From: Gluconobacter kanchanaburiensis NBRC 103587
Lineage (GTDB): Bacteria; Pseudomonadota; Alphaproteobacteria; Acetobacterales; Acetobacteraceae
Direction: 5' to 3'
Assembly: GCF_007988905.1 (NCBI RefSeq)
Contig: NZ_BJVA01000019.1
Span: 1-42,234, forward strand
DNA: 42,234 nucleotides
Shown in pieces: positions 15,303 through 37,441 of the stretch. A program made the position numbers and the translations under genes. Position 1 is the stretch's first letter. Every line of letters starts with the position of its first letter. The notes beneath the pieces were generated by a model. That model did not search any database. It saw nothing but the letters and a program-made list of their open reading frames with translations, and was not told the DNA's origin.

Positions 15303-16427
15303 TCAGGCGCGAGGCGGCAGAAGAACGTCTAGGGCCAGTTCGCCGGGCAACGCACCACGCGGGAAAATCGTATTCACGTGACCCATCTTCCGGCCCGGAC
15401 GAGCCTCATTTTTACCATACAGATGCAGCGACGCTCCGTCCGTGGCAAGGATGGCAGGGACGCGCGCCATGTCTTCAGGTCCGATCAGATTGTGCATGAC
15501 CGCATCGGAATGACGCCGGGCCGGCGGGAGTGGAAGCCCCGTTACCGCACGAACATGCATTTCAAACTGATCGACAAGACATGCATCCATGGTCCAGTGA
15601 CCGGAGTTGTGGGGACGAGGGGCGATCTCGTTCACCAGAAGCGTGCCATCAGCGGCATGGAACATCTCCACGCCCATAATCCCGATCAGGCCCAGAGCAT
15701 CGGCAATCCGTGCGGCCATATCCTGAGCCTGTCGGGCAAGACCCGGCATGATCCGCGCGGGGGCAAGTGTCACGTCCAGAATGCCGTCGCGATGCCTGTT
15801 CTCGACCGTATCGAAGCAGCGCACGGTCCCATCCAGGCCGCGCACCACCATTACGCTGAGTTCGCGCTCGAAATCGATCATTTTCTCCGCGACGAGAGGA
15901 TACGGCAGGTCTGCCAGAGCAGCCAGTTCCCCGGCATCACGAACGCGGAACTGTCCCTTGCCGTCATAACCGAACCGCGTCGTCTTCAGGATCAGGGGAA
16001 AGCCGAGCGTCTCCAGTGCGGCAAGGTCTGCCGGACCATTGACGGCACGCCAAGGCGCAAGCCCGACACCGATTTCGGAAAGACGTGTCTTTTCTGCAAT
16101 CCGGTCCTGGCTGATCCGAAGGATCTCGCCCGCAGGCCGCACCGGCCTGTGTCGTTCGAGGAGCGCCAGCCCCCTGGCGCTGATATTTTCGAACTCGAAA
16201 GTTACGACATCGCAGCGGGATGCAAAATCCTCAAGCGCCTCCGGATCGTCATAGGCACCGATTGTGACGGACGCTGCAACCTCGGTAGCCGGCCCCGGAA
16301 ATTCGGGACTGAGGAGATGAACGTGATAGCCCAGCTTCGCAGCGGCCACGGCAGACATTCGACCGAGCTGCCCCCCGCCTATGATCCCGACTGTGCTACC
16401 GGGAGCAAAAACCCTGTCATGTGTCAT
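15303..16427 (-). CDS. purK: N5-carboxyaminoimidazole ribonucleotide synthase
   Basis: A 374-residue ATP-grasp enzyme that converts AIR, bicarbonate and ATP to N5-CAIR in purine synthesis. [11 protein letters not shown] near the start is the typical PurK opening, [13 protein letters not shown] around 145-157 is the ATP-grasp loop, and [13 protein letters not shown] near 270-282 is a family signature. The frame extends 15 codons further upstream, but ATG 16427 overlaps the purE stop (ATGA) and places the glycine-rich loop correctly. Downstream partner of purE in the same operon. Confidence 0.97.
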
Positions 16428-16948
16428 TCGACAGGCACATCCGCTACGGCTGCAGTCTGCGTCGCCCGCCATGCATCCAGCCGTGCCATGACCCGGGCGT
16501 CGGTGACCGAAAGGATCGACGCGGCCAGAAGCCCCGCATTGGTCGCGCCTGCCTTGCCAATGGCAAGCGTACCAACAGGGACACCCCCCGGCATCTGAAC
16601 GATGGAAAGCAGGCTGTCCTGCCCATTAAGGGCACGGCTCTGCACTGGAACACCCAGAACGGGAATACTTGTCCAGGCGGAGCACATTCCCGGAAGGTGG
16701 GCAGCGCCCCCGGCTCCCGCGATAATGACATGCAATCCCCGCTGACGCGCCGTTTTTGCATACTCAACCAGTCGATCCGGCGTCCGATGGGCCGAAACGA
16801 TACGCTTCTCATGCGCGATTCCAAGATCATCAAGGATCTCGCAGGCGTGACGCATGGTATCCCAGTCGGACTGGCTGCCCATAATGACGCCGACACGGAT
16901 CGGCATGTCGTTCTGGAGTGTTTCGTCGGTAGAGAGGGTCTGGCTCAT
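16424..16948 (-). CDS. purE: N5-CAIR mutase, class I PurE
   Basis: A 174-residue enzyme that rearranges N5-CAIR to [17 protein letters not shown] (18-30), VSAHRTPDR around 55-63, and the [12 protein letters not shown] loop with a following GVPVQS identify class I PurE, which works together with PurK, consistent with the neighbouring gene. The start lies directly after the stop of the DUF465 gene without a gap. Confidence 0.97.
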
Positions 16949-21006: not shown

Positions 21007-22551
21007 TCAGACCGGAAGTTCTTTGGGGCGGGCGAGGGCATACCACCGCACGACCAGAAGGCGTGACAGCAGGAGAGTCGTGAAGAGGGTCGTGACAATG
21101 CCTATAGTGATGGTCAGGGCAAAATTGCGCACAGGCCCCGTACCGAACACGAACAGCATGACATGCGCCAGAAAGGCCGTGGCATTACTGTCGACAATCG
21201 TGCCGGTCGCCCGGTCGAAACCGGCCTGCAAGGCCTGAAGGGGGCCTCGGCCACGCTTCACTTCCTCGCGGATACGCTCGTTGATCAGAATGTTCGCATC
21301 CACAGCCATACCAAGAGTCAGCAGCATACCCGCCATCCCTGGAAGCGTAAGCGTGGCCTGAAACAGCGACAGGATCGCCACCATCAGAATCAGGTTCGCA
21401 AACAGGGCAATATCCGCATACAGGCCAAAGCGTCCGTAAAACAGAACCATGAAAGCAATGACCAGCAGCAGACCGGTCAGAAGGCTGATGATGCCGGCAT
21501 GAATGGATGCAGCGCCAAGGCTCGGGCCGATCGTCCGCTGTTCAACCACGGAAAGTGGGGCGGGAAGGGCACCGGCACGCAGAAGAAGGGCCAGATCGGA
21601 AGCACTGCGAGCATCGAATCCTCCCGTGATCTGTCCGCTTCCCGCCGTAATCGGGCTGATGATGTTCGGAGCTTCGATGACCTTGTTGTCCAGAACAATT
21701 GCAAAGCGCTTGCCCACATTGGCCCGCGTGACATTCGCGAATGCCGTCGCTCCTGCGCTGTTGAGCTGGAACGTCACAGCCCAGCCGCCACTCTGTTGAT
21801 CGATGACGGCACCCGCGTTTGTCAGATCGGTGCCGTCCACATCCACGTGGTCCTGCACAGCGATCTGCGCATGTACACTTTCATCCTCAAGCATCGTTGA
21901 GCCTGGGCTCGCAACGCTGGGATTGGGCGCGAGAAGCCGGAAGGTTAGTCGCGCTGTTGTCCCCAGAAGGTTCTTAATCCGCTCCGGATCGCTAACACCC
22001 GGCAACTCCACAACGATCCGGTCGTCACCCTCACGAGCGATGCTCGGATCGATCGCACCCGTCGCGTCAATACGGCGCCGTACGATCTCGATCGACTGGG
22101 CAACCGCTTCACGGGCCCGGGCGAGCATGGCATCGTGCTGAAGCGTCAGAACAATCCGACCATCCTTTTCGGAGGCTGCGAATTCGTCAGGAACTGCTGG
22201 AGGCAGCGATTGCATAGCCCTGAATGCGGCATCACGCTCGGCATCGGAACGTGGCGCGAAGCTCAGGCTGGCCGAAGCATCGTCGCGAACGAAATCCCGA
22301 TATCCCAGAGACTTGTTCAGAAGGGTCTGGCGTGCCTGATCCTGCAGCGACTGAAGACGGTCATGCTCAAGAGATTTCAGATCAAGCTGCAGAAGAAGGT
22401 AGGACCCGCCTCGCAGATCGAGCCCCAGATGAATCTGCCGCCAGGGCAGGGACGGTGCGGGAGCACTCAGGAAATTGGGCAGACACAGGAGCACGCCGAT
22501 CAGGCAGATCCCTGCGACGCCCAGCAGTCTGAGCCGGCTGTAATACATCAT
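21007..22551 (-). CDS. secD: Protein translocase subunit SecD
   Basis: A 514-residue partner of SecF with a first membrane helix at about 8-26, LGLDLRGGSYLL (family motif) near 43-54, a large periplasmic domain, and a C-terminal bundle of five helices (about 350-505) with GMAVDANILINERIREE. The tandem ATG at 22551/22548 gives two equal start options. YajC, often encoded just upstream of secD, is absent here: the upstream neighbour is a divergent dehydrogenase gene. Confidence 0.97.
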   Translation of the reverse strand: MMYYSRLRLLGVAGICLIGVLLCLPNFLSAPAPSLPWRQIHLGLDLRGGSYLLLQLDLKSLEHDRLQSLQDQARQTLLNKSLGYRDFVRDDASASLSFAPRSDAERDAAFRAMQSLPPAVPDEFAASEKDGRIVLTLQHDAMLARAREAVAQSIEIVRRRIDATGAIDPSIAREGDDRIVVELPGVSDPERIKNLLGTTARLTFRLLAPNPSVASPGSTMLEDESVHAQIAVQDHVDVDGTDLTNAGAVIDQQSGGWAVTFQLNSAGATAFANVTRANVGKRFAIVLDNKVIEAPNIISPITAGSGQITGGFDARSASDLALLLRAGALPAPLSVVEQRTIGPSLGAASIHAGIISLLTGLLLVIAFMVLFYGRFGLYADIALFANLILMVAILSLFQATLTLPGMAGMLLTLGMAVDANILINERIREEVKRGRGPLQALQAGFDRATGTIVDSNATAFLAHVMLFVFGTGPVRNFALTITIGIVTTLFTTLLLSRLLVVRWYALARPKELPV

Positions 22552-22708
22552 ATCAGGTCGAGACGTCCTCGGCGGATTTGGACAGATCGTCTTTCAGATC
22601 ATTTTCAGGCCGGGACCATGCCGTTTCTGCCCTGCCGATGCAACCTTTTGCCCTGTTTGGCGGAGGCCCTCCTTTTCGTCAAACGCCACGCCTGTTAATC
22701 GTGTGGGC

Positions 22709-23704
22709 ATGAATACAGCGCAGCAGCTCCGGGTCGGTATCGTCGGTGCGGGACATTTCGGACGGTTTCACGCCCTCAAATCCGCGGCGAACCCGACGGA
22801 AGAGCTTATTGCACTTTTCGATCCCGACCTATCTCGGGCAGGCGTGGTCGCGGATGAAGTTCGTTGCGGAATTGCTACAAGCTATGAAAATCTTCTCGAT
22901 CAGGTTGATGCCGTCATCATCGCCGCCCCTGCGGAATACCATTTCCCACTGACCAGCCAGGCACTATGTGCCGGGAAACACGTTCTCGTCGAGAAACCTA
23001 TCGCCGCAACCCTTGAGGAAGCACATTCTCTTGCCGAACTAGCGGAGAGAACTGACCGCGTCCTGCAGGTTGGACATCTGCTGCGGTATTCCGCCGAACA
23101 CACTGCGATTACTGAACGGATCAGAAGGCCGCTTTATATCGAAGCAACACGCATCGCGCCCTTCAAGCCCAGAGGCACCGATGTGTCAGTTATTCTGGAC
23201 CTGATGATCCATGATTTGGATCTTGTCCTGGCCATCGTTGACAGCCCGATTGCAGAAATTGACGCCCTTGGCGCCGCAGTTTCAAGCGCCCATGAGGATA
23301 TCGCCAACGCAAGAGTACGGTTTGAAAACGGCTGCGTCGCCGCTATAACGGCCAGCCGAATTTCTCTGAAAACTGAAAGACGGATGCGTCTGTTTTCCCA
23401 GGACGGCTATCTTTCCGCCGATTTCATGGAGCGAAAGCTGAGCTTCATTGGTCGGGAGAGAGGAATACCGCTACCCGGTACCGGAGGGTTCCGTCGTGAG
23501 GCTATAAGCTGGAAAGATCACGATAATCTTGCTGTAGAGCATGCGGCTTTCGCAGCATCCTGTCTGCATAGAACCCCAGTTCTGGTAGATGCTTACGCAG
23601 GAATCAGGGCGCTTGATGCCGCGATCAAAGTGACCGACAGCATTCGGAAGTCGCGTCAGATCATGGAATATTCCGGACTAATTCCTAACCCCGGTAAAGA
23701 ATGA
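22709..23704 (+). CDS. Gfo/Idh/MocA family oxidoreductase
   Basis: A 331-residue NAD(P)-dependent dehydrogenase with an N-terminal Rossmann fold (GIVGAGHFGRFH) and the family motif EKPIA near 93-97. The C-terminal half contains FKPRGTDVSVILDLMIHDLDL, a segment I associate with the UDP-GlcNAc 3-dehydrogenase (GnnA-like) branch, where the enzyme prepares a 3-amino sugar for lipid A. No GnnB-type aminotransferase or lpx gene is beside it here, so that substrate remains a guess. Start ATG 22709 is preferred to GTG 22703; no Shine-Dalgarno is evident. It is divergent from secD and converges on the ABC-F gene. Confidence 0.88.
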   Translation: MNTAQQLRVGIVGAGHFGRFHALKSAANPTEELIALFDPDLSRAGVVADEVRCGIATSYENLLDQVDAVIIAAPAEYHFPLTSQALCAGKHVLVEKPIAATLEEAHSLAELAERTDRVLQVGHLLRYSAEHTAITERIRRPLYIEATRIAPFKPRGTDVSVILDLMIHDLDLVLAIVDSPIAEIDALGAAVSSAHEDIANARVRFENGCVAAITASRISLKTERRMRLFSQDGYLSADFMERKLSFIGRERGIPLPGTGGFRREAISWKDHDNLAVEHAAFAASCLHRTPVLVDAYAGIRALDAAIKVTDSIRKSRQIMEYSGLIPNPGKE

Positions 23705-25586: not shown

Positions 25587-26327
25587 TCAGACCGGCGTGA
25601 CGCCACCTGTCACCGCTTGATAGGTCGCGACGGCGAGAGTCATAGGCTCGAAGGGTTTCGTAATGACGAATGACGGCTCCTGCGTTTCCCCGGTCAGAAG
25701 ACGCTCAGGATAAGCCGTCACGAAAATGACCGGCGCTTCATGTGTCCGCAGAATCCGCCCCACGGCCTGCATTCCATCGCCGCCACCGCCAAGATTGATA
25801 TCAGCAAGGATGAGCCCGGGTTTCGTTTTTCCTGCCAGTTCGACCGCGTCAGCCTCGGTATGAGCAACACCCGCAATCAGATGTCCGCAACGCTCCACCA
25901 GATCCTGAATGTCCATCGCGATGATCGGTTCGTCTTCAATGATCAGAACGCTGGTCTGTGCGATGCCCCGTAACCCCTCACGGGCTGAACGAAGTTCGGA
26001 AGCCGCCTCCTCATCGCTCATGCCCAGAGCTCTGGCGCTTGAGGCAAGGGACTGCTCTTCAAGAGAAGTTAGCAGCAGGAGCGCGCGCTGACGCAGAGGT
26101 ATACCAACGGATACGCTGACCTCATGCTGCTTCGTGAACGCCTCAACCAGTAATCCATACAGCGCAGATCGCGGGGAAAGGGTGTTCTCGCGCGGGTTTT
26201 CCACCAACTCCCTGAGGGCTGTAGCTACGAGCTGATCGCCACTCTTCTGCTCTCCCATGAGGGCCCGTGCAAAACGGCGTGCATAAGGAAGCGCTTTGAC
26301 GAGTTCCTGCCGCGCGGAATCACTCAT
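25587..26327 (-). CDS. phyR: PhyR, anti-anti-sigma response regulator
   Basis: A 246-residue regulator joining an EcfG-like sigma domain (about 1-115) to a receiver domain (about 125-240). In the general stress response of Alphaproteobacteria, phosphorylated PhyR opens and its sigma-like domain captures NepR, freeing EcfG. The receiver has the acidic pair Glu131-Asp132, phosphoacceptor Asp176 in LADINL, and FVTAYPE (202-208) followed by TKPFEP, the FAT-GUY-type pattern of this family. The sigma-like domain is not expected to bind DNA. AGGAGG precedes the ATG by about nine bases. The gene is divergent from the first ecfG gene across ~150 bases; no consensus GGAAC-N16/17-CGTT promoter was found there. 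Confidence 0.96.
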   Translation of the reverse strand: MSDSARQELVKALPYARRFARALMGEQKSGDQLVATALRELVENPRENTLSPRSALYGLLVEAFTKQHEVSVSVGIPLRQRALLLLTSLEEQSLASSARALGMSDEEAASELRSAREGLRGIAQTSVLIIEDEPIIAMDIQDLVERCGHLIAGVAHTEADAVELAGKTKPGLILADINLGGGGDGMQAVGRILRTHEAPVIFVTAYPERLLTGETQEPSFVITKPFEPMTLAVATYQAVTGGVTPV

Positions 26328-26481
26328 TGCTCGATAGCCTCCTGGAAGAAAATTTCGGCAGACACATCCTTAAAGGACGCATCTCACTATGGAAGGTTGA
26401 ATAATCATGACACGATGCCTAATCTACGTATAGTCTCCGTTTCTGTCGGCTCGTTGGCTACGTCGCGCGAAGGAACATCTT

Positions 26482-27057
26482 CTGAGCACACAAGTCCCCG
26501 CGGGCCATTCGTCAGAGCCTCTCTCGAACAAGGGAAATTTCCATCGGGAGCTTCTGCAATGCCTTCCCGACCTACGAGGATTTGCGCGCTTCCTTACTCG
26601 CGAGAAGAGTGCTGCTGATGACCTCGTTCAGGAAACCATCGTTCGCGCACTAGCGGCACAGACACAGTTTCAGGAAGGAAGTGTGCTGAAAGCATGGCTT
26701 TTCACAATTCAGCGACACGCTTTCTATGAGCAGAACCGACGCCGGAGCCGGGAACTGGAAATTATGCAGGACATCGAATTCGATGCCCCTGCTTCAGACG
26801 CGATGCCATTACGTCAGCATAACCGGGATACACTGCAGGATCTCGGGGAAATGCTCTGGAGGCTTCCGCACCTTCTTCGTGAAGCCTTGATTCTCGTAGG
26901 CGCGCAGGAGCTGTCATATGAAGATGCGGCCCGGGTATGTGATGTTCCGTCAGGGACAATGCGCGCCAGGGTTTCGAGAGCCCGCGCACAGCTTGCAGAA
27001 CTTTCCGGACGGGAAAACATGGAAATCCATTCAGAATCCGAAAATAAAATTGTTTAA
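26482..27057 (+). CDS. ecfG: EcfG-type sigma factor with apparent CTG start
   Basis: A 191-residue group ECF15-like sigma factor of the general stress response. Region 2 includes LLQCLPDLRGFARFL, ADDLVQETIVRALA and LKAWLFTI; region 4 includes LPHLLREALILVGAQELSYEDAA and GTMRARVSRARAQL. The in-frame coding signal runs upstream to about 26482, yet between the in-frame TAG at 26431 and GTG 26683 there is no ATG, GTG or TTG. GTG 26683 would delete most of region 2. CTG 26482 has AAGGA at 26470-26474, seven bases before it, and gives a normal-length protein beginning MSTQVPAG. A sequencing frameshift joining the other-frame ORF at 26397-26618 is the alternative. It is followed by a second ecfG-like gene and nepR. 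Confidence 0.85.
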   Translation: MSTQVPAGHSSEPLSNKGNFHRELLQCLPDLRGFARFLTREKSAADDLVQETIVRALAAQTQFQEGSVLKAWLFTIQRHAFYEQNRRRSRELEIMQDIEFDAPASDAMPLRQHNRDTLQDLGEMLWRLPHLLREALILVGAQELSYEDAARVCDVPSGTMRARVSRARAQLAELSGRENMEIHSESENKIV

Positions 27058-27188: not shown

Positions 27189-27764
27189 ATGACATTCCAC
27201 GATCAGGTCATTGCCATTCTTCCGAAGCTGCGTATTCAGGCTCTCTCACTGACCCGGAACCGCGCCGCCGCTGAAGACCTTGTGCAAGACGCCGTGTGCA
27301 ATGCTCTGGCCGCCCAGAACAGCTTTATCCCGGGTACGAATTTTTCGGCGTGGATGCACCGTATCCTTCGTAACCGTTTCATTTCCGATCTACGCAAACG
27401 TCGTGAGACCACGGATATCGATGATGTGCCCGCATCCTCCTTTGCGAGCCCTGCAACGCATGAAGACAACCTAGCTCTCAAGGACCTGTCGATGGCGCTC
27501 TCCCGACTGCCTGCCGACCAGCGTGAAGCTCTCGTCATGGTTGTAATACAGGGCATGAGTTACGAAGCTCTGGCGGAAGCAACGGACTGCGCCGTAGGTA
27601 CCGCGAAGAGCAGGGTTTTCCGTGCCCGCCGCCAGCTTGAAGCCTGGATGAATGGGGATCTTCCCGTGAACGACAGACTCCGCATGAAGGTCAAAGCCCT
27701 ACGGGATGCCATGGATATACGTCATCGTGACGGCCAGTCCGCTCACGATCTACTACTTTCCTGA
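27189..27764 (+). CDS. Second EcfG-type sigma factor
   Basis: A 191-residue sigma factor paralogous to the preceding one. Region 2 carries RNRAAAEDLVQDAVCNALAA and FSAWMHRILRNRFISDLRKR; region 4 carries LPADQREALVMVVIQGMSYEALAEA and GTAKSRVFRARRQL. A C-terminal tail of about 30 residues follows region 4. An upstream ATG at 27168 is in frame, but ATG 27189 has AGGAG eight bases ahead and is preferred. The promoter region at 27058-27188 is T-rich. Having two tandem EcfG paralogues beside one nepR and one phyR suggests either divided promoter sets or modulation of one by the other. Confidence 0.92.
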   Translation: MTFHDQVIAILPKLRIQALSLTRNRAAAEDLVQDAVCNALAAQNSFIPGTNFSAWMHRILRNRFISDLRKRRETTDIDDVPASSFASPATHEDNLALKDLSMALSRLPADQREALVMVVIQGMSYEALAEATDCAVGTAKSRVFRARRQLEAWMNGDLPVNDRLRMKVKALRDAMDIRHRDGQSAHDLLLS

Positions 27765-27962: not shown

Positions 27963-28136
27963 ATGACCGCAGGAGACAAGCGGAAAGCGTCAGCCGATGA
28001 TGACGGAGGGGATGAAAAAGACTCTCCCTTCGGAATTTGGTTGAGCAGGGGCCTGCATCAGCTTTTTGACGATGTTGCGAACGAGCCAATTCCTGAAGAG
28101 CTGCTCCGGCTGATTGAGGAAGACCGAAACAAGTGA
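27963..28136 (+). CDS. nepR: NepR, anti-sigma factor of the general stress response
   Basis: A 57-residue protein, acidic at its N-terminus, with the NepR helix pair LHQLFDDVANEPIPEELLRLIEE-like pattern across residues 31-53. The conserved VANEPIPEEL turn between two helices wraps around EcfG or, after stress, around the sigma-like domain of PhyR. AGGA lies seven bases before the ATG. The stop overlaps the GTG start of the kinase gene (GTGA), so the two are likely co-translated. In many Alphaproteobacteria nepR precedes ecfG; here it follows two sigma genes after a gap of about 200 bases. Confidence 0.93.
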   Translation: MTAGDKRKASADDDGGDEKDSPFGIWLSRGLHQLFDDVANEPIPEELLRLIEEDRNK

Positions 28137-30007
28137 CTGGTACGCGGTCTGGTTCGCCAGACCAAGATTCGCGCCTTAACGCTCGATTCTGGTCTGGACA
28201 ATGGCGTCTGCGCAGTCTCCGGATGCTGGACACGGTCGGTGCCAGGGTCATGGCGCTCATTGTTGCCACGACTCTGCCTCTTGCCGTTATTGCGTCTTTT
28301 CTAGCTTGGCACAGCTATCAGCAAAACGTTGGCAACAGCGCGCTGCGTACTGAACGCGATACCCAGCTGGCAATCTCGGAAATCACGACTGATCTTGATC
28401 AGACCCATACCCTTCTGGACATGCTGGCCGATGGGGATATTTCCTCTGGGAACGCCCTGAGAGAATTTGCGCTGGTCCAGACGATCTCCCAGCATAACTA
28501 CTGTCTTCTAATGCTGACGGATGTGGCAGGACGCCCCTCGGTTATATTACCCCCGCCATCAACTCAGGACGCGGCAATATGCCGTTCGCCCGATTTTAAC
28601 GTCTCATCGCTTACAACAGGCTCATCAAAACTGCCTATGGTCGGTGTTAACGTTCTCACGGGGGAACGTGGCCCGCTCCTCAAATTTGTTGTTCCCATTC
28701 TCAGTAACAATGCAGTCTCCGGCTATATTGTTGCCGTGAGAACATTGGGATGGCAGCGCAGTCATCTTCCCAAAAGGGACAACCGGCGACTACTCGGCAT
28801 GGCCAGTGAAACGAAGCACTTTCTGGCAATGCCAGGCGGATCTCTTTATTCGCTTTTCCCGGATCAGCCAGTAGTTGCGGACCTGCCACCGAAAGCTCTG
28901 GCTCACCTCCGGCAAGACATATCGTCTCTCAGACTTCAGGACGTTTTTACGAGCGAGGGAACGACTTATGCTTTTCAGAACGCTTATGGGCCCGTCAGCC
29001 TGATTGTAGCGACTGAGCGCACTGCGGAAGAAAGTCGCGCCCTTAATATCTTTCTGCTTCGCGTCAGTCTGATTGTAGGCCTGCTCCTCATCGAACTGCT
29101 GGCTGTCGCGATGGGCGCGCGACTTTTTCTGGTTGAGCCGTTGGAAAAGCTTGCAAGTGCCGTAGCAGAATGGCGACGGGGAGCAGCTTTTGCACCCCGA
29201 ATCAGTCACGCAATCCCTCTTGAAATCAGACATCTTGAGAAAGCATTTCTGCGAGCGACGAGACGCCTGGGTCAACATGAAAAGGATCTCGAGCAGTCCG
29301 CGCGCAACCAAGATATGCTTATCCGAGAAATTCACCACCGGGTTAAGAACAACCTCCAGGTTGTCGCATCCCTGCTAAACCTTCAGGCAAGCCGCATCCG
29401 TTCGCACGAGGCGCGTGAGGAATTCCGGCTCGTACGGGACCGGGTGAGGGCGCTCGCAACGCTGCATCGCTATCTCTATTCAGAGAACGGTCTGTCTGCC
29501 CTCGATGTACAGAGTTTTCTCGAGGAACTTTGCAGTATCCTGCTGTCTGCCAATGGCATGAACGCTCAGACCCGTATCCGTCTCAAGCTCGATATTGAAC
29601 ACGTGCTGATCTCACCGGATCAGGCAGTCCCCATTGCGCTGATCGTTACCGAGGTAGTCAGCAATGCCCTGCGTTATGCGTTCCCACAAAACAGATCGGG
29701 CCATATTGCAATCAGTCTTCATAAAATCGTTCATACATCTACAGACCAAGAAGGCTTGGTTGAACTCAGACTCGGAGATAACGGAATCGGAATCGACGCC
29801 GGTCGGGCCACTGAATCCCGCATGCGTCGGGAAGGAATCGGAATGCAGCTCATTCGTGGATTTGCGCGTCAGATCAACGCCGATATGACTGTGCAGACCG
29901 AAAACGGAACCTGGTATATTCTTCAGTTCGTGCCGGAACGGCCCTCTCTCACAGCTCTCGCCATGGCGCGCAGTGCGATCGCCCAGAGAGAAGAGACGGA
30001 CGTGTAA
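28133..30007 (+). CDS. HisKA_2 sensor histidine kinase, probable PhyR kinase
   Basis: A 624-residue membrane kinase with a first TM near 37-59, an extracytoplasmic sensing region of about 240 residues, a second TM near 305-333, a HAMP-like linker, and a HisKA_2/HATPase core. The H-box IREIHHRVKNNLQVVASLLNLQ (phospho-His about residue 400) is typical of HisKA_2 kinases such as PhyK. The N-box EVVSNALRYAFP and G-box DNGIGID follow. Start is GTG 28133 overlapping the nepR stop. Position next to nepR and family membership make it the likely donor (or phosphatase) for PhyR. The sensed signal cannot be read from sequence; no PAS domain is evident. Confidence 0.92.
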   Translation: MTGTRSGSPDQDSRLNARFWSGQWRLRSLRMLDTVGARVMALIVATTLPLAVIASFLAWHSYQQNVGNSALRTERDTQLAISEITTDLDQTHTLLDMLADGDISSGNALREFALVQTISQHNYCLLMLTDVAGRPSVILPPPSTQDAAICRSPDFNVSSLTTGSSKLPMVGVNVLTGERGPLLKFVVPILSNNAVSGYIVAVRTLGWQRSHLPKRDNRRLLGMASETKHFLAMPGGSLYSLFPDQPVVADLPPKALAHLRQDISSLRLQDVFTSEGTTYAFQNAYGPVSLIVATERTAEESRALNIFLLRVSLIVGLLLIELLAVAMGARLFLVEPLEKLASAVAEWRRGAAFAPRISHAIPLEIRHLEKAFLRATRRLGQHEKDLEQSARNQDMLIREIHHRVKNNLQVVASLLNLQASRIRSHEAREEFRLVRDRVRALATLHRYLYSENGLSALDVQSFLEELCSILLSANGMNAQTRIRLKLDIEHVLISPDQAVPIALIVTEVVSNALRYAFPQNRSGHIAISLHKIVHTSTDQEGLVELRLGDNGIGIDAGRATESRMRREGIGMQLIRGFARQINADMTVQTENGTWYILQFVPERPSLTALAMARSAIAQREETDV

Positions 30008-36458: not shown

Positions 36459-36959
36459 ATGCGTTGCCCTTTTTGCGGACATGACGACACACAGGTCAAG
36501 GACAGCCGCTCTACGGAGGACGGTGTCGCCATCAGGCGCAGACGCGTCTGCTCGGCGTGCACGCAGCGTTTCACAACCGTTGAGCGCGTTCAGCTTCGGG
36601 AGCTTTCCGTCACCAAGGCAGACGGGCGGCGCGTGCCCTTCGACCGGGACAAGCTGGCGCGCTCCATTCGCGTCGCCCTACGCAAGCGCCCGGTTCCTGA
36701 AGAGCGGCAGGAGAGACTGGTCAACGGGCTGGTGCGACAGCTTGAAGCGTCCGGAGAACATGAAATTTCTTCCCATCGCATCGGTCAGCTCGCAATGGAC
36801 GCATTGCGTGAGGTGGATGGTGTGGCCTATGTCCGCTTCACCAGCGTTTATCGCGATTTTCGCGAGGTCGAGGCGTTTTCAAAAATCCTCGCCGATATGA
36901 AACCCATCCCCGGGGAGGCGGCCATTCCGCCTCCCGACGATTCCCAGGAGACACCATGA
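36459..36959 (+). CDS. nrdR: Transcriptional repressor NrdR
   Basis: A 166-residue repressor of ribonucleotide reductase genes. It begins with the zinc ribbon MRCPFCGH ... CSACTQRF (Cys at 3, 6, 31 and 34) and continues with an ATP-cone domain (about 49-140) that senses ATP/dATP. The frame opens 50 codons upstream, but ATG 36459 is where the family starts, with AGGA eight bases ahead. The end overlaps nusB (ATGA). In many Alphaproteobacteria glyA and rib genes accompany nrdR and nusB; they are not here. Confidence 0.97.
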
Positions 36960-37441
36960 CCGCCACCGACGCCCCTGCCGCGAACCCGACACGCCGCAGC
37001 CGGACTATCGCCCGCGTCGCCGCCGTTCAGGGCCTGTTTCAGTGTGAACAGTCAGGTGATACGGCAGAGACCGTCATCAGCCAGTTCATCCGCCATCGCC
37101 GGGTGAGCTCAACCGCCTCTTTCGAGGACGGTCACATTCCTGACGCCGATCTGAAGCTTTTTCAGGAAATCATGCTTGGCGTCACACGCCGCCAGGACGA
37201 GATCGACGCAAAACTGGGCGATGTCCTGCCGGAACAGTGGCCCCTGCCTCGTCTCGATCCTGTTCTGCGCGCCCTTCTTCGCGGCGCAGTGTTCGAACTC
37301 ATCGGCACCGACACGCCAGACCGTATCATCATCAATGAATATCTGGACGTCGCGCACGGGTTCTTCTCAGGAGATGAACCCAAGATGGTAAACGGCATCC
37401 TCGATACGCTCAGCCGCCGCAGTGAGACCGGTAACGCCTGA
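36956..37441 (+). CDS. nusB: Transcription antitermination factor NusB
   Basis: A 161-residue all-helical NusB that binds boxA RNA with S10 for rRNA antitermination. [21 protein letters not shown] is the conserved first-helix segment (about 14-34). [15 protein letters not shown] and FVNGILD-like MVNGILDTL near the end are typical. Its ATG overlaps the nrdR stop, and thiL starts three bases after its stop, so the three genes form one translation-coupled operon. Confidence 0.97.

Follow-up and report, generated by a model that had tools for sequence, protein, structure and literature searches.

As judged from the comparison of related genomes, the gene for an EcfG-like ECF sigma factor in Gluconobacter kanchanaburiensis NBRC 103587, here called sigma1, very probably starts at a CUG codon (position 26482) that is served by a Shine-Dalgarno AAGGA. 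This start would be ancestral to a clade of acetic acid bacteria, would mostly have been kept there, and would likely act as a fixed low set point for the sigma factor. The position of the start, its conservation, its Shine-Dalgarno sequence and the boundary at which coding begins were all established by the comparison. The window is the whole stretch of DNA that was analysed, 42,234 nucleotides of contig NZ_BJVA01000019.1, and all coordinates refer to it unless another locus is named.

The sigma1 gene extends over 26482..27057 of the forward strand and encodes 191 amino acids, as determined by frame translation, Pfam and comparison. Translation shows that the frame stays open from the in-frame TAG at 26431 to the stop codon at 27055-27057. 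The first ATG, GTG or TTG of this frame is the GTG at 26683..26685 (forward strand), which lies inside region 2, and none precedes it after the TAG. This GTG was rejected as an implausible start, as it is residue 84 and its product would lose most of region 2. With residues counted from 26434, the Pfam match to sigma region 2 covers residues 42-106 and that to region 4 covers residues 135-187. Sigma-70 regions 2 and 4 are present and region 3 is missing, which is the ECF architecture. The Pfam scores were 48.3 bits for PF04542, 42.9 bits for PF08281 and 52.9 bits for PhyR_sigma2, all above cut-off, and TIGR02937 scored 59.4 with a cut-off of 42.9. The best subfamily and equivalog models of NCBIfam all scored under their own cut-offs. 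The distance from the upstream stop to the first usual start was compared among 40 long open frames of the window (at least 90 codons, picked greedily and mechanically), and it was largest in the sigma1 frame, with 83 codons versus 53 in the runner-up. Three other long frames, at 15303-16625 (reverse strand), 22544-23704 (forward) and 36812-37441 (forward), also run for 48-53 codons before a usual start appears.

The locus encodes the partner switch of the general stress response and includes two EcfG-like sigma genes. The divergent phyR (25587..26327, reverse strand) was identified by profile matches as a response regulator with a PhyR sigma-like domain, and it is followed on the forward strand by sigma1, sigma2, nepR and an HWE-type kinase. 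The second EcfG-like gene, sigma2 (27189..27764, forward; profile matches and comparison), has an ATG behind AGGAG, and its start is ATG in all 26 genomes of the genus code. The anti-sigma factor gene nepR (27963..28136, forward; 57 aa) overlaps the start of the HWE/HisKA_2 sensor histidine kinase gene (28133..30007, forward) by 4 nt; the best NCBIfam match of the kinase is PhyK, far under its cut-off. The sigma1 gene adjoins phyR and shares the locus with nepR, as EcfG-type genes do. In this locus nepR sits between sigma2 and the kinase (GTG start) and not directly before a sigma gene, while a motif check placed nepR directly before the sigma gene in 17 non-Acetobacteraceae loci. Among the reference EcfG proteins next to NepR, 8 of 17 are closer to sigma1 than to sigma2, and one solved sigma chain, 5uxx, is matched about as well by either protein. 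The two genes are neighbours in one locus, yet sigma2 is far more conserved: in the 20 closest genomes, the identity to the window's copy is 93-99% for sigma2 and 65-76% for sigma1. The promoter consensus of EcfG targets is GGAAC-CGTT. In a search for a possible EcfG promoter, this consensus matched once in the window, below the 2.0 matches that chance would give.

The genus code of the window comprises 26 genomes, and sigma1 is present in all of them. The CTG (26482..26484, forward) is invariant in the 21 closest genomes (L001-L021), where it always stands 30 codons ahead of the conserved LRGFARF in a gapless alignment. The AAGGA (26470..26474, forward) is likewise invariant in these 21 genomes, and its spacing to the CTG is 7 nt in 20 of them and 8 nt in L021. 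In the window the spacing is 7 nt; this motif and spacing, as well as the missing ATG, GTG or TTG between 26431 and 26683, agree with the preliminary description. Across the genus code, 23 of the 26 genomes have the CTG at this position. Two of the five remoter genomes, L023 and L025, have it; L024 has TTG, L022 probably has ATT and L027 has an ATG elsewhere. In L022 (its positions 1474-1488), the probable ATT replaces the CTG 8 nt after AGGA, and no ATG, GTG or TTG lies in frame above region 2.

The leucine, indel and pN/pS tests were confined to the 21 closest genomes, with L022-L025 and L027 (51-60% identical) set aside. All 16 other invariant leucine columns of sigma1 vary in their codon, each using 2 to 6 codons with CTG in at most 17 of 21 genomes, and CTG makes up 198 of the 454 other leucine codons. 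Residues 2-19 of the protein are only 15-55% identical per column. An ordinary leucine codon would be expected to vary, so the invariant CTG counts in favour of a start codon. The invariance of CTG and AAGGA in the 21 closest genomes, together with its presence in 23 of the 26 genomes of the genus code for CTG, is more than chance would give. The Shine-Dalgarno energy from AAGGA to CTG in the window is -6.2 kcal/mol; like all energies given here, it was calculated with an assumed anti-Shine-Dalgarno sequence, which may differ from that of this genome. Two pattern searches for the 16S 3' end, one covering a single genome and the other 26, gave no match. For G. oxydans, the consulted text of PMC5756330 reports aGGAg motifs that match the 16S tail.

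The comparison was extended to the Acetobacteraceae. The family search matched 113 genomes, and the DNA was examined for the mostly better-scoring part of them (30 loci and 40 regions), with start labels beyond the 21 closest genomes assigned by eye. A quick protein tree was built from 87 hand-chosen Acetobacteraceae rows, leaving out near-copies (among them L031-L043, L045, L048, L161 and L181), non-Acetobacteraceae loci and several outgroup Acetobacteraceae. All 50 rows with CTG fall in one clade of 59 (SH-aLRT 93, not starred). The other nine rows of the clade are one probable ATT (L022) and eight usual starts. Four of these eight (ATG, GTG or TTG) are read as changed; L152, L155, L168 and L179 are labelled canonical, though the ATG of L152 lies almost exactly at the CTG site and L168 has a CTG besides. 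The TTG of L024, the ATG of L047 and the GTG of L053 stand at or near the CTG site with a Shine-Dalgarno-like sequence ahead, which is the picture expected of a start codon. The CTG rows include ten genus codes (g1, g9, g47, g50, g55, g67, g73, g84, g97 and g109), and also six named Acetobacter loci that have no genus code of their own. The CTG start that had been proposed from the window alone is thus borne out comparatively, in 21 of 21, 23 of 26 and 50 of 59 cases at the three levels. Since the start is kept in most of the clade members examined, it is neither an error nor a peculiarity of a single strain.

The absence of a usual start is also shared. No ATG, GTG or TTG lies between the upstream stop and codon -10 in 12 of the 59 clade rows (the window and 11 others), a count that omits rows without a stop within 75 codons. 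In four of the twelve, L015, L017, L020 and L046, the CTG is the sole near-cognate codon there. Within the clade a strong Shine-Dalgarno sequence precedes 45 of 85 in-frame CTG codons versus 2 of 53 CTC, CTT, CTA or TTA codons (p 2.5e-10, rows not independent); this test is independent of the start labels, and the 53 include many spacer codons. When the Shine-Dalgarno and spacer codons were excluded, a version that uses the labels, the counts were 45 of 84 versus 1 of 26 (p 2e-6, rows again not independent). The same comparison in 28 outgroup rows gave 5 of 19 for CTG versus 3 of 18 for the other leucine codons. When the clade is tallied by which codon has the strongest Shine-Dalgarno, CTG and AGC tie at 11 each, because the adjoining codon shares the motif. 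Of the 50 labelled CTGs, 44 have a Shine-Dalgarno energy of -5.0 or stronger; the six without a strong one include g84 (4 rows, -2.4 kcal/mol) and L156 (-3.0). These data suggest that a weak CTG start has been kept across many genera.

The beginning of coding was located from stops, indels and substitutions. An in-frame stop lies 5 codons before the CTG in 9 of the 50 CTG rows (including L017, L020 and L023), 8 codons before it in L007 and 10 codons before it in L025. One-base indels occur upstream of the CTG in the 21 closest genomes, and none occurs within 30 codons downstream. The ratio pN/pS was computed with gaps ignored and pooled over pairs that are not independent. For the 14 rows of the oxydans group (91 pairs) it is 1.03 upstream and falls to 0.49 in codons 2-22 and to 0.09 beyond them; codons 2-22 read in the two shifted frames give 0.90 and 1.13. 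For the 5 rows of the frateurii group, it is 0.91 upstream, where the figures are inflated by indels, 1.20 in codons 2-12, 0.42 in codons 12-22 and 0.77 in codons 2-22. Codons 2-12 of this group are without a coding signature, and the effect is confined to codons 12-22. The coding signature starts downstream of the CTG, and it is weaker in the frateurii group.

A sigma-70-like promoter, ATGACA-16-TATAGT (26407..26434, forward), is predicted by motif upstream of the gene. It fits 10 of 12 consensus positions, and the region holds 2 such sites versus 0.7 expected. The in-frame TAG at 26431 probably belongs to the -10 box of this promoter, and the sigma1 mRNA probably starts near 26441, which would give a leader of about 40 nt. 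Leader RNA structure was considered as a means of control, and the RNA fold of 26441-26540 is no stronger than that of shuffled sequences (z 0.06). The idea of a conserved upstream reading frame within the leader was rejected, since the alignment length varies and the ATG is not kept in L015-L021. Between phyR and sigma1, a block like TTGAATAATCATGACACGA (window 26397-26415) shows strong conservation across most of the 21 closest genomes; it may serve as an operator or as the promoter of phyR, and also form part of the sigma1 promoter.

In the explanation that we propose, the AAGGA would position the ribosome on the CUG at 26482, 7 nt downstream, and the CUG, as a poor initiation codon, would set sigma1 at a low and fixed level. 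The paralogue next door, sigma2, would be made from AUG. The weak CUG has probably been retained to hold sigma1 scarce. We infer that initiation takes place at this CUG in the cell, that the yield is low and that the low yield has been selected. In E. coli, according to the consulted parts of PMC11497404, CUG initiation complexes are less stable than those of AUG, GUG and UUG, and CUG lowers translation (PMC11497404, and PMC13068326 citing a systematic study). The poor performance of CUG at initiation in bacteria makes a low set point of sigma1 likely. Conserved AUA and AUU starts in Staphylococcus are described in the accessible text of PMC13009471 as giving about 10% of the AUG output, and up to 30% in one case.

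The CUG might also be the start codon and yet functionless, if little sigma1 is needed and a weak start is tolerated and drifting. We regard this reading as rather doubtful, although part of the data fits it. The sigma1 protein evolves fast in the 20 closest genomes (65-76% identity versus 93-99% for sigma2), low-expressed genes tend to evolve fast, and some lineages have ATG, GTG or TTG instead of CTG. However, a change from CUG to AUG, GUG or UUG takes a single base and should improve initiation, and the CUG is still kept in 50 of the 59 clade rows. Switches to CUG are also very rare elsewhere: the part of PMC5622118 on 36 prokaryote groups gives 2 changes among 61,358 ancestral AUG starts, 1 among 5,080 GUG starts and 1 among 2,468 UUG starts.

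Sigma1 might also be under dynamic, IF3-dependent control. The CUG would then be a switch and not only a brake, and sigma1 synthesis would follow initiation stringency (IF3, initiator tRNA, ribosome state), a reading that we consider unlikely. The sigma factor would be made when translation itself is disturbed, and selection would keep a codon that IF3 discriminates; L022 seems to have swapped CUG for AUU, which is likewise discriminated by IF3. A close known parallel in form is infC, the IF3 gene with its AUU or AUA start, which like sigma1 has a long-conserved non-canonical start after a good Shine-Dalgarno sequence. In the genus code, infC has CAGGAG-6 nt-ATA in 26 of 26 genomes (L208-L233), with an ATG five codons later, and the ATA would be the infC start in this genus. 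A weak, presumably IF3-controlled start thus exists in the genus. The codon before the ACC ATA of infC is CTG in 24 of the 26 genomes. In E. coli, infC autoregulates through IF3, as the consulted text of PMC13009471 has it, whereas sigma1 has no known loop of this kind and its codon is CUG.

A start further upstream in the oxydans group, at an NTG five codons before the CTG that the window copy (GCG) would have lost, is very improbable. The preliminary description had named a usual start arising by a one-base difference in related genomes as what would speak against CTG. L015, L017 and L020 likewise lack a usual start, so none is common to all 21 closest genomes. There is a partial exception: of the 14 rows L001-L014, 11 have GTG and 2 have ATG where the window has GCG. 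This codon could be used in those 13 genomes, and a gene caller would probably pick it. But the Shine-Dalgarno energy of this NTG is 0 in 10 of the 13; in the other three, L007, L010 and L012, it ranges from -2.1 to -3.3 kcal/mol. The CTG, by comparison, has -5.9. The NTG lies immediately next to the AAGGA of the CTG, and the codons at its place in L015-L021 are AAA, CGA, TGA, TGG, TCC, TGA and GAA. A sequencing error or a natural or programmed frameshift joining the sigma1 frame to a start in another frame, the main rival in the preliminary description, has a negligible probability and is excluded by the 21 closest genomes, in all of which the CTG occupies this place unshifted and is followed by a coding stretch of equal length; the overlapping frame that opens at TTG 26397 / ATG 26415 was rejected as its source, matching no Pfam or NCBIfam model at E values up to 0.01, beginning upstream of the predicted mRNA start and lacking the ATG 26415 at that place in L015-L021.

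A low set point through the CUG start has several relatives among known systems. The starts of ccpN (AUA) and cvfC1 (AUU) in Staphylococcus and relatives are conserved and weak, stand behind strong Shine-Dalgarno sequences and limit the synthesis of a regulator or small protein, in the account of PMC13009471 as consulted. Unlike the CUG of sigma1, those codons are AUA and AUU, belong to another phylum, and were detected by ribosome profiling and tested with reporters (same source). In Listeria, start-codon strength at rsbW likewise sets the output of the general stress response; there, the consulted part of PMC13068326 describes selected mutations in an anti-sigma gene, whereas the present case is a clade-wide CUG in the sigma gene. 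Methylobacterium, Rhizobium and Sphingopyxis have at least two EcfG-like paralogues with PhyR and NepR, as here, and the consulted parts of PMC4814048, PMC3892343 and PMC7083833 mention no unusual start codon for their EcfG. The preliminary description had called sigma1 the EcfG master stress regulator and its start a possible control point. The EcfG-like character stands, while the gene is one of two tandem EcfG-like genes, and the roles of master regulator and control point may be supposed.

In G. oxydans 621H, a CTG start follows 22 of the 973 5'-UTRs that were analysed (PMC5756330). The genus may therefore use CTG starts more often than most bacteria do, which makes the present case less surprising. 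These CTG-start genes are not named and carry no conservation analysis in the consulted text of that paper, which names two ECF genes for G. oxydans without a stated link to sigma1; a term search found PhyR, EcfG and CUG absent from its main text. The conserved weak bacterial starts in the consulted parts of PMC13009471 and PMC13068326 are AUU, AUA or AUC. A CUG-started EcfG or other sigma gene was not found among the matches listed for the open-licence literature. Conserved non-canonical starts are a known kind, and a clade-wide CUG in a stress sigma gene was not met in that literature among the matches listed.

Gene callers normally look for ATG, GTG or TTG. This suggests that sigma1 may be misplaced or cut short by gene callers across the clade. 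If the CUG has truly been kept over ten genus codes, this stress sigma factor of the acetic acid bacteria would provide a natural system in which to examine whether the weakness of a start codon is selected as a dosage setting.
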